Shown: positions 7,101-53,055 of the stretch, one piece after another | How the letters are laid out: each line of letters starts with the position of its first letter | Numbering within the stretch: position 1 is the first letter of the stretch | NCBI RefSeq assembly: GCF_011174775.1 | Contig: NZ_JAANHS010000008.1 | Span: 62,001-126,000, forward strand | DNA: 64,000 nt | Source of the DNA: Rhodobacter calidifons | Lineage (GTDB): Bacteria; Pseudomonadota; Alphaproteobacteria; Rhodobacterales; Rhodobacteraceae | Direction of reading: 5' to 3' | The notes under the pieces: generated by a model | The model's input: the letters and a program-made list of their open reading frames with translations, nothing else | The model's database searches: none | Told to the model about the DNA's origin: nothing | Position numbers and translations under genes: made by a program

Positions 7101-7564
7101 ATCTTCCCGATCTTCTGCAACGGGCCCGCTACTGGGGCATTCGGATCGCCACCGCGGAAAGTTGCACCGGGGGTCTGGTCGCGGCGGCCCTGACCGAGGT
7201 TCCCGGATCCTCGGACGTGTTCGAGCGCGGCTTCGTCACCTATTCCAATACGGCCAAGATCGAGATGCTGGGCGTCCGTGCCGAGACGCTGGCCGCACAT
7301 GGCGCCGTCTCCGAGGCGGTCGCGCAGGAGATGGCAGAGGGCGCGCTGCGCCATTCGGCGGCTGTGCTGGCGGTGGCGATCACCGGCATTGCCGGGCCGG
7401 GCGGGTCGGAATTCAAGCCCGAGGGTCGGGTCTGCTTTGGTCTGGCGCAGCGGGGCCGCGAGACGCGGGTCGAGACGGTGGAGTTCGGCGCCCCCGGCCG
7501 GGCAAGGGTGCGGGCGGCCGCGACGCAGCACGCGCTTGGGCTGCTGGACGCGGCGCTGTGGTAG
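7088..7564 (+). CDS. CinA-family nicotinamide-nucleotide amidohydrolase
   Basis: 158-aa protein corresponding to the C-terminal CinA/PncC domain alone, which deamidates NMN in pyridine nucleotide recycling. Motifs are IATAESCTGGLVAAALT (catalytic Ser/Cys region), YSNTAK and ITGIAGPGGSE. The N-terminal molybdopterin-like domain of full CinA is absent, as is usual for the short form. The open frame extends upstream only as a shadow of pgpA; ATG 7088 is the natural start. Confidence 0.92.
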   Translation: MAGIDLPDLLQRARYWGIRIATAESCTGGLVAAALTEVPGSSDVFERGFVTYSNTAKIEMLGVRAETLAAHGAVSEAVAQEMAEGALRHSAAVLAVAITGIAGPGGSEFKPEGRVCFGLAQRGRETRVETVEFGAPGRARVRAAATQHALGLLDAALW

Positions 7565-7622
7565 GCGGCAAGGCCTTTCGAAGGGATCTGCAAAGTCCTG
7601 CCAGGGAATCCGGTGCCCGCCG

Positions 7623-8480
7623 CTAGGGATGCAGCGCGAAGAAGTCGAGGATTTCGGTGTTCGCATCGATCTCCTGCGTCATCGCCATGTCCTTGCGCGG
7701 CATGCGGCCGCCCGGCCAGTTGTGCCCGCCCCCTTCAACGGTCATCAGGCGCAGCACGACGCGCCCGTCCTTGCGGTAGTCGGTGACGACGACCGCCGTG
7801 CCGTCGTCCTTGCGGTCGATCCGGCGAGAGGTCTCGGTCAGGCCTCCGCCCCAAGGGGCGAGGAACGCCTTGACCACCGAGACCACCGAGGCGAAATCGG
7901 TTCGCGTCAGGCTGGTGTCGCCCTGCCCGCCCGCATAGGGCACCATGGTGTCGGCGGTGCCGTGGATGATCAGGGCCGGCACCGGCGCCTTTACCCGGAC
8001 CGAGCGGGTGTCCATCGTGCCGGCCACCCCGGCGACCGCCCGCACCTTCGCAGGGTTCCTTGCCGCGAAGGTCTCGGCCAGCATCGCGCCGTTCGACATG
8101 CCGGTGATGTAAACGCGCTCGCCCAGCCCGAAACGGGCCTGCGCATCGGCGATGACCCGGATCAGGAAGCCCTCGTCATCCACCCCGGAGCGCGCAGCCC
8201 CCGCACAGCAGTAACCGGCGTTCCAGGACAGAAGCCGCCGCCCGGTTCCGGCCGGATAGGCCACTGCATAACCCCGGCGCAGGGCGACCGCCGTCAGGCC
8301 GGTCAACCTCTCGGTCCGCTCGGGATTGCCGCCCCCGCCGTGGAGCACCAGAAGCAGCGGGGCGCCCTTGGCACGCGGGGGCAGCGAGATCTCGTACCAG
8401 CGGTCGCCCAGACGGACGGTCTCGGCCAGCGCGGCAAGGGGCAGGAAAAGCAGGGAAAGGAGAAGAACAAGACGGCGCAT
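7623..8480 (-). CDS. Secreted LpqC/PHB-depolymerase-like esterase
   Basis: 285-aa alpha/beta-hydrolase. The start is set at MRRLVLLLSLLFL (8480), which has AGAGG at good spacing and begins a Sec signal peptide ending near LAALAE. The mature part contains VLHGGGGN (oxyanion region), the nucleophile elbow GMSNGAM, a C-terminal Asp in HGTADTMVPY and a His in GGGHNWPGG. This is the arrangement of LpqC-type and extracellular polyhydroxyalkanoate depolymerase-type esterases. A Cys pair (CCAG) may form a disulfide. The substrate is unknown. Convergent with the CinA gene, separated by 58 bases. Confidence 0.87.
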   Translation of the reverse strand: MRRLVLLLSLLFLPLAALAETVRLGDRWYEISLPPRAKGAPLLLVLHGGGGNPERTERLTGLTAVALRRGYAVAYPAGTGRRLLSWNAGYCCAGAARSGVDDEGFLIRVIADAQARFGLGERVYITGMSNGAMLAETFAARNPAKVRAVAGVAGTMDTRSVRVKAPVPALIIHGTADTMVPYAGGQGDTSLTRTDFASVVSVVKAFLAPWGGGLTETSRRIDRKDDGTAVVVTDYRKDGRVVLRLMTVEGGGHNWPGGRMPRKDMAMTQEIDANTEILDFFALHP

Positions 8481-49219: not shown

Positions 49220-49517
49220 CTTCCGCCCTCAGAACCGCACAGTCTGTCCGCTGCGCTTAAACGATGATGTTTCCCCGGGGTCCGGGCACATGCACCCGCG
49301 GCTTGTGTCGCCACTTTTCCCCAGGGGTCCGCCTGCAATTTGTGGTCAGCATACCGATTTGCGCAAGCAGTGGGAAGGGCACAGGCATGCTTGCCCCTTC
49401 ACGATCAGCGGAATTCGCCACTGCGGCCGTCCCGTGGCGGGACAAGGACGGACTTTCAGAATCGAGCTGCGCCGTTTATGCGGGCAGCGCGATCCGGGCA
49501 GGGTTTCGGACCGCGGG
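49220..49517. other. Intergenic region between the SPOR gene and tRNA-Ser
   Basis: About 300 bases without a credible gene. It contains the dyad GTCCCG-TGG-CGGGAC (49429-49443) and must hold the promoters for the SPOR-dacA-tmk operon and tRNA-Ser; none is clear enough to place. Confidence 0.5.
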
Positions 49518-49606
49518 GAAGTGTGGCCGAGTGGTTTAAGGCTCTGGTCTTGAAAACCAGCGTGGGGGAAACTCCACCGTGGGTTCGAATCCCACCGCTT
49601 CCGCCA
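49518..49606 (+). tRNA. tRNA-Ser (UGA)
   Basis: 89 bases including encoded CCA. Acceptor GGAAGTG pairs with CGCTTCC (one G-T); the anticodon loop CTTGAAA gives UGA; a long variable arm and the T loop GGTTCGAATCC are present. tRNA-Ser genes are common integration sites, and a decayed island follows. Confidence 0.96.
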
Positions 49607-49632
49607 CTTGCCCTTGAGAAAGCGTTCTCCCG

Positions 49633-49653
49633 ATCCGGCTCCGGCCGGATTTT
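49633..49653 (+). terminator. Terminator of tRNA-Ser
   Basis: 7-bp stem ATCCGGC / GCCGGAT with a four-base loop running into TTTT. Confidence 0.75.
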
Positions 49654-50085
49654 CTCGTTGTTTTCGAGGGTTATACGGGAGGGGCTGAACACCGGCCCCG
49701 GTGGCAAGAGCCTCGGAAGCGGTCTCTCCGGGCCGATATTCTCCGGACCTCTCGACCTGCATGAGTCAGTGCAGAGTCCTTAAGTCCTTCGAAAAAATGA
49801 AGAAATCCGAGGCCAGACCTGAACACTTCGACGCCAGTCGCACGGTCGAGATGGAACTGGCATCGAAAATGGCATCGCTGTGCTGAACGAACCCGAAGCA
49901 TCGTTACCCTCGCTCGCCAGCGATGGACTGTCTCGCAATTACGTCCCGCATCGAGTGCACAGCGCGCAAAGTGTTATTCACAGCGTCTGGAGCTTCCCGC
50001 CGCATTTATCGGCTTGTCCCAGTCGTCGAGGGGCAAGCGAACACTTGCGCGAGGATGCGCTCGCGGCGAACGATTTTCGGCGGCC
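49654..50085. other. Non-coding remnant between tRNA-Ser and the dnd relic
   Basis: Short frames on both strands (one plus-strand frame ends KSEARPEHFDASRTVEMELASKMASLC) with no recognisable family. AT content is higher than in the flanking core genes. Interpreted as decayed island DNA. No copy of the tRNA 3' end marking an attachment repeat was found. Confidence 0.5.
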
Positions 50086-51063
50086 TTACCAGGCCTTGAT
50101 CTTCCTCGCGGAAGGATCATTCCGCCGCCGGATATAGGCTTGGCCAGTCTGCAAAGTTGTTAGGTTCACGCCCTTGCCCAGCACCCGTGCGGCGCTCCCC
50201 GGTTTTGCATTGGTCGAGAAGGCGGCGACCAGCCCCATCTGATCAAGGAAATCGTCATCCTCACCCTGGAAATCGTCGGGCGATTGCGACACCAGCATGA
50301 TCGCACCGCCCTTTGACCGGCTCATGCGGATCAGGCGTGAGAGCGAGGGCAGCTTCGTTCCCAAAATCTGGTGCGCCTCATCAACCATGCACAAGATGCG
50401 CAGACCCCGCGCGCCGTCTGCACTGCTCTGAGCATCCACCAAGCTGTTGAGATACTGGTCGAGCGCATCCAGCAGCAGATTGACAACAATCGTGCGACTG
50501 TCCTCAGCCACGTTCGGCGGCAGCTTGATGATCCAGCTCTTTTGGAAGAACTCCGCGGGGCTCAGGGTAGGTTGGAAAAGCGGAAAGCGGCAAATCTCAT
50601 CCATCGTCGAGATCGCTCCGTCTTCCCTCATCTCGTGTTCGGCATATACGCTGCTCAGGGCATCGCGGATGTGATGCAGCTCGCAGGGGCTCTCACTCCT
50701 GAGCGCCCGACTGGCCGCCTCATGGAGAGCCGTGCGCTGCCGATCTCCGAGGCGGCTGCCTTTCAGCCGCGCGAAAGACTCCCGGAACCTTGAGGCCGCT
50801 TCGGCAATGCCGATTTCATCACGGGCATTAATGGAGAGCACATCCAGAGGTATTGGCATGCGCGGCGGTTCGATCACTTCAGCTTCAAATGCATCGCCGA
50901 GCGAAGACGCGTCCTGGCGCGTCCCTGTGAACCCCGCTAGGTCGCCCTTGAAGTCAAACGCCAGCAGTGGAACCGGAGCCTTCTCGCGGATCGCCCGCAG
51001 TATCGCGGCGGCCGTGACGGTCTTTCCAGATCCGCTTCGGCCTATGATAGCGCTGTGCGGTGA
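50086..51063 (-). pseudogene. HerA/FtsK-type ATPase, C-terminal remnant (DptH-like?)
   Basis: About 325 codons open from the Walker A region to a stop. Reading inward from 51060: PHSAIIGRSGSGKTVTAAAI (Walker A), LLAFDFKGDLAGF, a middle helical part, LRILCMVDEAHQIL (Walker B), IMLVSQSPDDF (sensor) and a basic end AYIRRRNDPSARKIKAW. There is no start codon: the frame meets a TAG at 51070-51072, immediately where the DndC frame takes over. This is the ATPase core of a longer HerA-like protein. Next to DndC, the natural candidate is the phosphorothioation-dependent restriction ATPase DptH; that identity is inference. Confidence 0.7.
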
Positions 51064-51385
51064 TGCTGTCTATGATGTGCTGGACGACGAGCGGGCTCTC
51101 GACGAGCGTGTCGTTGGCGACGATGTGCACCTGACGCCTCCGCTCGCTTGGGGGCAATGCCATGAGCATCTCGAAGACCAGATGGGCAACTAGTGTGCTA
51201 TCCTTGCCGCCCGAATAGCCAATGATCCAAGGATAGGGGTGAGGCTGCCGGTACTCATCAAGCAGCTCGGCGCGTATGTGCTGGAAGGCCTTGGCGTGGT
51301 CGTCATCTGCCCGGATGACCTCAGCAATACCAACCCCATAGCCTGCTCCTGTTTCCCATTTTTCTTGTTTATTTGGTGTAGCAGC
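51056..51385 (-). pseudogene. DndC N-terminal fragment (DNA phosphorothioation sulfurtransferase)
   Basis: About 110 codons readable in one frame: FQHIRAELLDEYRQPHPYPW, the PP-loop IIGYSGGKDSTLVAHLVFEM, then SERRRQVHIVANDTLVESPL and VVQHIIDS. The SGGKDS ATP-pyrophosphatase loop followed by V-ANDTLVESP is specific to DndC among PAPS-reductase-like proteins. It then loses homology at about 51060, where the HerA frame starts, and a stop follows at 50954. The natural N-terminus is also unclear, because the IS110 remnant abuts it. A fusion by internal deletion of a dnd cluster is the simplest reading. Confidence 0.8.
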
Positions 51386-51647
51386 CGAACGGCCCTACCG
51401 TAAATCGCGGATGACCCATCTCGGTCAACTGACGATGCAGGCCATAGCCGCAGGGACCGGCCTCGTAGCAGAAGCGCAAGGTGCCATGCGCCTTCAGCAA
51501 CTTGGCCACCAGCTTGCGCACCGCCTCGCGCGTGTTGGCGATCTCGCCCAGATAGCGCACCTCGCCGCCGCGCCGGTCCTCGGCCACCGCGACCGCTATC
51601 GTTTCTTTGTGCACGTCGAGACCGACAAATGCTGTATCCTCTCCCAT
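51369..51647 (-). pseudogene. IS110-family transposase, N-terminal fragment
   Basis: 92 codons from ATG 51647 (GAGGAGACGAGCC upstream). The start MGEDTAFVGLDVHKETIAVAV carries the first Asp of the DEDD catalytic set and FCYEAGPCGYGLHRQLTEMGH carries the Glu. Homology stops right after GH; the last residues (PRFTVGPFGCYTK) are read through foreign sequence. The remaining RuvC-like and Tnp20 parts are gone. Confidence 0.85.
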
Positions 51648-51883
51648 GGCTCGTCTCCTCGTGTATGGGGCGTCTCTACCCGCGCCGCGCGGGCAATCCC
51701 CGTCATAACACGACGGGGGCGAGCCACCCCGAAACGAACATTGGGTCCTTCGTGGCGATATTCGTATGCTGGCGGGCGAAGCGCGGCATATCGCCAGCGA
51801 CAGGGCCGGATTTTCGGGAAGCCACCCGGAAGCCAGCGCTGCCTGAACCCTTCTGAATCCCTGCAAATTCAAACCCTTGATGC
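51648..51883 (-). mobile_element. Upstream end of the truncated IS110 element (possible bridge RNA region)
   Basis: Non-coding sequence upstream of the transposase fragment with two clear hairpins: CCCGCG-CCG-CGCGGG (51679-51693) and CCCCGTC-ATAACAC-GACGGGG (51698-51718). In IS110-group elements the region 5' of the transposase encodes the structured bridge (seek) RNA, so this may preserve it. The outer element boundary cannot be fixed without an intact copy. Confidence 0.5.
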
Positions 51884-51959
51884 TGGACACCCCTGGCGGC
51901 CGCTGGACCCCGCACGGAGTCCAGTCTGGACCCCGGAGTCCGGAAGCCAGGGGTATCCA
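51884..51959. repeat. 76-base nested inverted repeat
   Basis: Terminal arms TGGACACCCCTGGC and GCCAGGGGTATCCA (14 bp with one mismatch) enclose further dyads (CTGGAC/GTCCAG and repeated GGAGTCC). Lies between the IS110 relic and the 3' end of tonB. It could be a MITE-like element or a large terminator of the tonB operon. Confidence 0.5.
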
Positions 51960-52044
51960 TCCTGATCCGAGGAGTCACCCGACGATGACCCTGAGCTTTG
52001 CCCCGGACCGGATCGAGACGTGGCCGCCGGGCAGGGTTGAAACC

Positions 52045-53055
52045 CTATCCACGGCTTTCGTAGGCGACCTGAAACCGCCTTTGAGCGCCTGCCGGGGGGA
52101 CGGGGAATGGTGCGGCGCGGCGCAGGTGGTCTACCGCCGCGGCATCAATGGCCTCGTTGCCCGACGAGGTGAGTATTCGGACACTGGCCAAGGAACCGTT
52201 CGCGGCGATCTCGAACCCTACAACCGCCGTGCCGCGCGCACCGACCTGCGGCTTTCGAGTACGGCTGATCTTGCGCATGACGGAGCCGGGGTAATTCGAC
52301 GCAGCCGCATTGCCGGTCTCGCTTGCGACGGGGCCCTTGCCCGGAGCCTCGCTTAAAGTGCCCTGCTCGGTCCCCTCGACCAGGCCCTTGCGCTCTGCTT
52401 CGGCGGCCCCTGCCTCGGCGGCCGATGATGGCTTGGGCTTTGCCTTGGTCTTCCGCTCCGGCGCGGCTTCGGGCGTGGGCGCGACGCGTACGGATGTTTC
52501 CGGCGTCTGCCTTGGGCGGGGACGCGGGCTTGTCGCCAGGGCCGTCGCGGGGTCGACTGCCGGAATTGTCTCGCGCGGCGGAGCGGGTGTCAGGGCGGCT
52601 GGCAGAGGTGCAGCAAGCGCCGCGCGAAGGGTCTCGGGGGGCACCGCGGTCCCCTGCGGGATGGCGGCGGGCGCGACTTCAGCGATCGGTTCTTGCAGGG
52701 ATACGGTTGCCGCAGCCTCCGGCGGGACTGGCGCGAGTGGCGGTGGCAGGGTTGCCGGAACCGTCGCGGGAACCTCGGCGGGCGCGGCTGTCTCAGCCTG
52801 GGTTTCGACAGGAACCAAGGCCGCATCCGGAGCGGGATCGGGTGCCAGGGCAGCCGGAGTCGGCGTTGCGGTCGCCAGCCCCGGCACCGACACGGCGCTG
52901 CCGGCCGCGACATCGGCAAAGCTGTTGCCCAAACGGGCTGCCGCGGGTGCGGTTCCGGCGATCTCCGGGCCGTCCGGTTCGCCCAGGATCATCGCCCCGC
53001 CAAGATGGGCCAGGACCGACAGCGCCCCGAAGACCATCGCGCCCCGGACCCTCAT
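52045..53055 (-). CDS. tonB: Energy transducer TonB
   Basis: 336-aa protein with an N-terminal membrane helix, a long Pro/Ala-rich periplasm-spanning region (about 40-200) with KTKAKPKPSS, and a C-terminal TonB domain (YPGSVMRKISRTRKPQVGARGTAVVGFEI, ASVRILTSSGNEAIDAAAVDHLRRAAPFPVPP). Transmits proton-motive energy to the receptors in this locus. The start overlaps the ExbD-like gene by four bases. Confidence 0.94.
   Translation of the reverse strand: MRVRGAMVFGALSVLAHLGGAMILGEPDGPEIAGTAPAAARLGNSFADVAAGSAVSVPGLATATPTPAALAPDPAPDAALVPVETQAETAAPAEVPATVPATLPPPLAPVPPEAAATVSLQEPIAEVAPAAIPQGTAVPPETLRAALAAPLPAALTPAPPRETIPAVDPATALATSPRPRPRQTPETSVRVAPTPEAAPERKTKAKPKPSSAAEAGAAEAERKGLVEGTEQGTLSEAPGKGPVASETGNAAASNYPGSVMRKISRTRKPQVGARGTAVVGFEIAANGSLASVRILTSSGNEAIDAAAVDHLRRAAPFPVPPAGAQRRFQVAYESRG

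Follow-up and report, generated by a model that had tools for sequence, protein, structure and literature searches.

A remnant of the DndE-HerA Dnd family near tRNA-Ser in Rhodobacter calidifons

Comparison with described systems

Proteins in which a HerA/FtsK ATPase (clade 3) is fused to DndE, encoded next to a DndD-related ABC ATPase, have been reported from Dnd modification systems (Rakesh, Aravind and Krishnan 2024, PMC10853773). The intact system considered here is therefore of a known kind, described from sequence in the accessible portion of that article, but it is little studied. Set against the fusion systems in that portion of the article, the locus examined here, which lies in a 64,000-nucleotide stretch of Rhodobacter calidifons DNA (from this point on, the window), retains no more than the first quarter of dndC and, from the fusion, the HerA part. 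It is a remnant of the DndE-HerA Dnd family and not a working member; no DndD-related ABC ATPase gene is adjacent, and the HerA part is not fused to DndE. We put at roughly 0.88 the probability that the window holds the ruin of a four-gene phosphorothioation cassette, gained horizontally at the flank of tRNA-Ser, that lost ~3.74 kb in one deletion running from dndC to dndE::herA. Such a ruin is in itself ordinary.

A Burkholderia glumae plasmid (NZ_CP100298.1) has, by annotation, the identical four-gene order, namely dndC, a small protein, dndD and a 'DNA translocase FtsK'. Its genes are annotated as full-length, whereas those of the window are broken, and its small protein is a remote relative, scoring 21.7 bits against the 22-copy profile introduced below. 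The canonical dndBCDE systems, such as that of the Ruegeria plasmid NZ_CP045388.1, have DndC and DndD in common with the cassette family. Canonical DndC is, however, a single polypeptide (476-544 aa across the five proteins compared) and DndE is separate, whereas in the cassette family DndC appears to be split and DndE is fused to HerA. Five DndC cysteines are invariant in a joint alignment of seven sequences with canonical DndC, which is consistent with phosphorothioation by the intact family. In DndFGH (DptFGH), DndH is a long multidomain protein with a HerA/FtsK domain at its C terminus, and this domain is the closest solved structure; the relatives of the window's ATPase are instead DndE-HerA proteins, encoded after dndD. 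The CxC type (PbeABCD), whose ABC ATPase has a CxC zinc hook, differs as well: neither CxC nor CxxC occurs in any of eight ATPases of the cassette family, although for the ABC ATPase of one relative, locus L008, PADLOC ranks PbeC first; in NCBIfam that protein scores above the DndD cut-off. As for MADS, the PADLOC profile mad8 matches the HerA part and mad2 matches a methyltransferase beside loci L007 and L008, while the operon is of the Dnd type. A convergent methyltransferase gene lies downstream of the cassette in six of the 32 loci (L007, L008, L011, L013, L014 and L015). Our literature search found no publication joining DNA phosphorothioation and Rhodobacteraceae.

Head, tail and junction in the window

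On the reverse strand, a DndC-like head (51062..51340) carrying the PP-loop SGGKDS and the stretch NDTLVESP reads ...IIGYSGGKDST...HIVANDTLVESPLVVQHIIDSI until ~51066, the last three quarters of DndC being gone. A HerA-like ATPase tail (50086..51069, same strand) begins TASPHSAIIGRSGSGKT... in another frame and ends at its natural stop at 50086. It represents the C-terminal 327 codons of a DndE-HerA fusion, or the C-terminal two thirds of the HerA-like ATPase; the DndE part is lost, and Pfam and profile searches find no DndE domain in the tail. In profile searches the head matches PADLOC DndC, a PP-loop sulfurtransferase, as a fragment (E = 1.6e-23), and the tail matches PADLOC mad8 (E = 1.6e-18), DndH (E = 2.1e-15), and Pfam DUF87 (E = 8.1e-8) and HerA_C. 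The best relative of the tail is 84% identical, and alignment with relatives places the two retained motifs, the P-loop and DEAH, at 51042-51019 and from 50382, respectively. The reading frames and the DndC, DUF87, mad8 and DndH profiles thus bear out the first-pass annotation, in which a DndC head was joined to a HerA ATPase tail in a different frame. The junction, which that annotation put at ~51060, is actually at ~51066 (51060..51072, reverse strand), where dndC codon ~92 meets dndE::herA codon ~189 out of frame.

These two codons are 3735-3740 bases apart in all four relatives measured, as the previously proposed internal deletion would have it, and to judge from the aligned sequences the junction is explained by a single deletion of ~3.74 kb. 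Little or no common sequence is visible when the join is compared with the relatives. The ruin illustrates how a phosphorothioation island dies, with the middle gone and the ends left. A draft genome of 59 contigs would also allow for a mis-join in the assembly, the cassette itself being intact, yet we regard this as quite improbable. No repeat able to cause a collapse is present at the junction (between 49400 and 52200 there are only two pairs of 12-base direct repeats, none at the island ends), and searches of the rest of the genome, rated 99.99% complete, did not turn up the missing genes, although the DndD search, which gave no match, had no positive control. A DndB search likewise gave no match elsewhere in the genome and was positive in two of 14 control genomes. 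The window stretch is single copy in this draft assembly, where the one HerA-family match covers profile positions 186-511. In addition, an independent genome (G406) has a decayed HerA tail at the matching spot, which bears on the site and not on the junction itself.

No in-frame ATG, GTG or TTG occurs in the head upstream of 51169, so that its first possible start comes only after the PP-loop, and the first in-frame start codon of the tail, at 50877, is downstream of the P-loop. Neither nucleotide-binding loop can therefore be made from a normal in-frame start, and the remnant is most likely dead, making nothing useful. Could the tail nevertheless serve as an orphan ATPase, or as an interfering fragment? 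Its 327-codon open frame, its conserved motifs and the 63 silent changes among 88 specific to the window speak for such a use, which the position of the first start after the P-loop makes very improbable, as does a relative excess of replacing changes over the L007 branch (25/88 versus 3.5/52, counted under different filters). Over 320 codons, the window branch has 63 silent and 25 replacing changes, mostly silent, and the L007 branch has 48.5 silent and 3.5 replacing. The selection result is mixed and only hints at relaxed constraint. Since the frame of the tail is still open, either the collapse would be recent or the tail would not be wholly free, with some residual function.

The intact operon in relatives

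Scanning one-genome-per-species contigs with the HerA tail returned 32 loci, from 84% to 45% identical, whose neighborhoods were all searched with seven full-length proteins and a 66-aa protein. The order dndC, 66-aa gene, dndD, dndE::herA, all on one strand, recurs in 30 of them; L029 meets a contig end inside or just before dndD, and L037 is without dndC and the front of dndD, though its upstream sequence is present. A whole or partial dndD directly precedes HerA in 32 of 32, tying the HerA gene to the dnd cluster, and the four genes of the 30 loci amount to the variant Dnd system with its own HerA partner that had been suggested. The fragments had also been read as the first and last genes of a dnd/dpt cluster; strand and order hold, but the HerA part is a DndE-HerA tail that follows dndD and not DptH. 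Such HerA relatives are rare in the order, where five of 390 genomes match the tail query at E up to 1e-15, a count that takes in the genome of the window and a distant one at 29%. All four genes were matched on the megaplasmid of the laboratory strain Methylorubrum extorquens AM1.

The HerA alignment has 29 members, the window tail and 28 of the 32 relatives, with L022, L024, L030 and L035 omitted as open frames with unclear starts. The Pfam DndE domain (PF08870) is detected in 28 of these 29 at E up to 0.01; the exception is, by its length, the window tail. The DndE score of L008 is barely above the curated cut-off. The fusion protein is ~512 aa long, mostly 504-517 aa by first start codon, the four omitted frames being longer. 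When scanned in full by Pfam, the L008 fusion has no other DndH domain, and its AlphaFold2 model (pLDDT 85.8) has as its closest solved structure the DndH C-domain 7es4 (E = 4.6e-17). This structural match, together with the DndH profile hit of the tail (E = 2.1e-15), could be taken to mean that the HerA part derives from the DptH/DndH protein of a DndFGH restriction cluster. We rejected that origin, whose probability is practically nil, as every one of the 32 closest relatives detected (84% to 45% identity) is encoded directly behind dndD or part of one, and all 28 relatives scanned contain a DndE domain; the relatives are DndE-HerA proteins beside dndD.

The L008 DndC scores 361.6 bits against TIGR03183, above the cut-off of 290.4. 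A DndB-like gene follows the cassette in eight of 32 loci, omitting one weak match (E = 5e-3), and the one in L008 scores above cut-off against TIGR04172, 'DNA phosphorothioation-associated DGQHR protein 1'. In at least four of 30 loci (L007, L019, L022 and L034, with L018 perhaps a fifth), dndC or dndD is in two open frames; broken cassettes may be common, although several of these assemblies are draft or metagenome. In the Xanthomonas copy (L022), dndD is interrupted by an open frame at 7208-8434, presumably a transposase.

In the intact relatives, DndC and its detached C-terminal domain would introduce sulfur into the DNA backbone at sites that DndD and the DndE domain locate, and the fused HerA/FtsK-type ATPase would move along the DNA, linking scanning to a modification or restriction step. 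The intact family makes testable the role of a HerA motor fused to DndE, and also the purpose of the DndC C-terminal domain, here seemingly cut free.

A small protein and the C terminus of DndC

Between dndC and dndD, 30 of 32 loci encode a small protein of ~66 aa (7152-7349 in L008, and equivalents). It occurs in all 30 loci that hold dndC, and also on the plasmids L075 (AM1) and L083 (B. glumae). In an alignment of 22 of 31 copies, those with easily placed starts, five residues are invariant, one of them a cysteine, and the cysteine is present, by eye, in the nine remaining copies too. RefSeq labels the B. glumae copy and a more distant Mesorhizobium one 'DNA modification system-associated small protein'. 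On the plasmid of Mesorhizobium amorphae (L082), two ATPase modules stand in tandem by annotation, in the order desulfurase, dndC, ABC ATPase, DndE, then small protein, second ABC ATPase and FtsK/SpoIIIE-domain protein.

The L008 DndC ends at position 374 of the 447 of TIGR03183, and the sole NCBIfam match of the L008 small protein at E up to 0.1 is weak (E = 0.017) and falls at positions 394-445 of that same model; the L032 small protein has no NCBIfam match. Five canonical DndC proteins were then compared with the small protein, profile to profile. Their C-terminal segment, picked because the weak NCBIfam match had drawn attention to it, gave a probability of 94.6 and P = 6.8e-8, as compared with P = 0.18-0.77 for five other segments of those proteins. 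A search of 10619 sequences with the small-protein profile finds the five canonical DndC proteins at E = 0.039-2.1 only, and four unrelated open frames outrank two of them. It is the profile-profile comparison alone that separates the C-terminal segment from the rest. The matching cysteine is kept in four of the five canonical DndC, Massilia being without it. Two copies of the small protein have no Pfam match, and PDB holds nothing better than E = 0.96. The idea, taken from sequence, that the small protein is a ribbon-helix-helix protein was dropped, since its AlphaFold2 model is all helical (pLDDT 79.9).

From these sequence comparisons, DndC is most likely split in the DndE-HerA cassette family. 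No statement on a split DndC was found in the accessible portion of PMC10853773 or in the literature searched, a scope that takes in few subscription journals. Tentatively, DndC might work as a PP-loop and cysteine-rich body plus a detached 66-aa C-terminal domain, the latter either relaying sulfur between the cysteine desulfurase and DndC or docking DndC onto the DndD/DndE-HerA motor; we consider this possible, though on the doubtful side.

The tRNA-Ser site

The tRNA-Ser gene (TGA; 49517..49606, forward strand) is a conserved neighbor of the island. Together with the preceding gene it finds some match in 32 of 32 genus genomes, reduced in G396 and G400 to a 31-base piece. The flank between the tRNA and the end of the HerA tail (49607..50085) aligns with G406 into the HerA remnant of that genome, weakly between ~49900 and 50060. 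Among eight genus neighbors, DNA homology past the tRNA extends for 144-261 bases in five, 88 in one, and 7 and 0 in the other two. Thus, the patch is indeed downstream of tRNA-Ser, as first described, but it does not abut it. Insertion precisely at the 3' end of the tRNA, flanked by repeats, was considered and rejected, as the island has no end repeats and in most of the eight neighbors the homology runs on beyond the tRNA.

A 29-row profile matches three of 32 genus genomes at E up to 1e-10, namely the window's own, G401 and G406. G401 is the only one of the 32 with a full-length fusion; this is on a contig other than that of its tRNA-Ser, the same contig as locus L014, from a Tabrizicola sp. 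MAG. The HerA remnant of G406 is shorter than that of the window, shares its orientation and lies ~500 bases from the tRNA-Ser of that genome. The presence of this remnant at the matching spot argues that the insertion is real and old, and the island was probably present before the species of the window and that of G406 split, so one tRNA-Ser site would have decayed differently in two species of one genus. No cassette remnant was detected in 20 other stretches around tRNA-Ser in 16 genus genomes, of which L044 and L050 end at the tRNA and are uninformative, and most extend only ~1.5 kb past it.

The expectation that sister strains would carry the intact island holds in part: intact versions exist elsewhere, but the genus offers only the full-length fusion of G401, on a different contig from its tRNA-Ser. 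The suggested comparison of tRNA-Ser loci did turn up an uncollapsed version beside a matching flank, not in the genus but in Sulfitobacter delicatus (L017). There, an unbroken operon, with dndC in the opposite orientation, follows at ~0.5 kb a flank that shares 85% identity with 49583-49751 of the window over 169 bases. This flank (L017 5279-5447) consists of a copy of the tRNA-Ser 3' end and its downstream sequence, with no whole tRNA, and is located between the dnd operon and genes that we take to be conjugation-like. It is perhaps the attachment site of a separate element. In a tree of HerA tails, the window falls in a 10-row group with Mangrovicoccus, Hasllibacter, Stappia and others (support 100/99), apart from L014 of the same genus, which supports horizontal transfer. 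The cassette dndC, small gene, dndD, dndE::herA would thus have entered the tRNA-Ser flank by such transfer, and a single deletion removing ~3.74 kb between points within dndC and within dndE::herA would have followed.

The upstream motif and the right-hand side

On the reverse strand, an open frame at 51372..51647 contains a truncated, 92-codon N-terminal stub of an IS110 transposase; it matches NF033542 at E = 2e-13, under the curated cut-off, as expected for a stub. Within the same stretch, at 51375..51404 (reverse strand), lies the upstream motif of the dnd operon, TTTACG-N18-TACACC in the window. In eight of 11 relatives aligned, TTTACA-N18-TACACA precedes dndC; one hexamer deviates in L011 and both do in L013, L009 is unaligned there, and a twelfth relative, L037, has no dndC for anchoring. 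From its sequence the motif appears promoter-like. As homology to the dnd upstream region begins at ~51412, the IS part seems to end there, just ahead of the motif. The description of the patch as capped by a truncated transposase therefore stands insofar as the IS110 stub adjoins it, but the stub meets the conserved dnd upstream motif, with a phage-like remnant on its far side.

For other Dnd genes, the flanks 49600-50100 and 51360-52100 were compared with the 32 loci and gave no match in or near the cassettes, with the exception of the tRNA flank of L017 and weak matches to L018 and L031 (E = 0.01-0.03). The genes to the right of the island, which we read as TonB/Exb-like, were not found beside tRNA-Ser in eight neighbor stretches, two of them short. 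The phage-like remnant beyond the stub occupies 51743-52043. Over its first part, 51743-51959, it shares 74% identity with a segment of another contig of the same genome (C9). In C9, this segment comes just before a gene that we take, by eye, to be ParB/methylase-like, and the start of that gene is seemingly retained in the window at ~51985.
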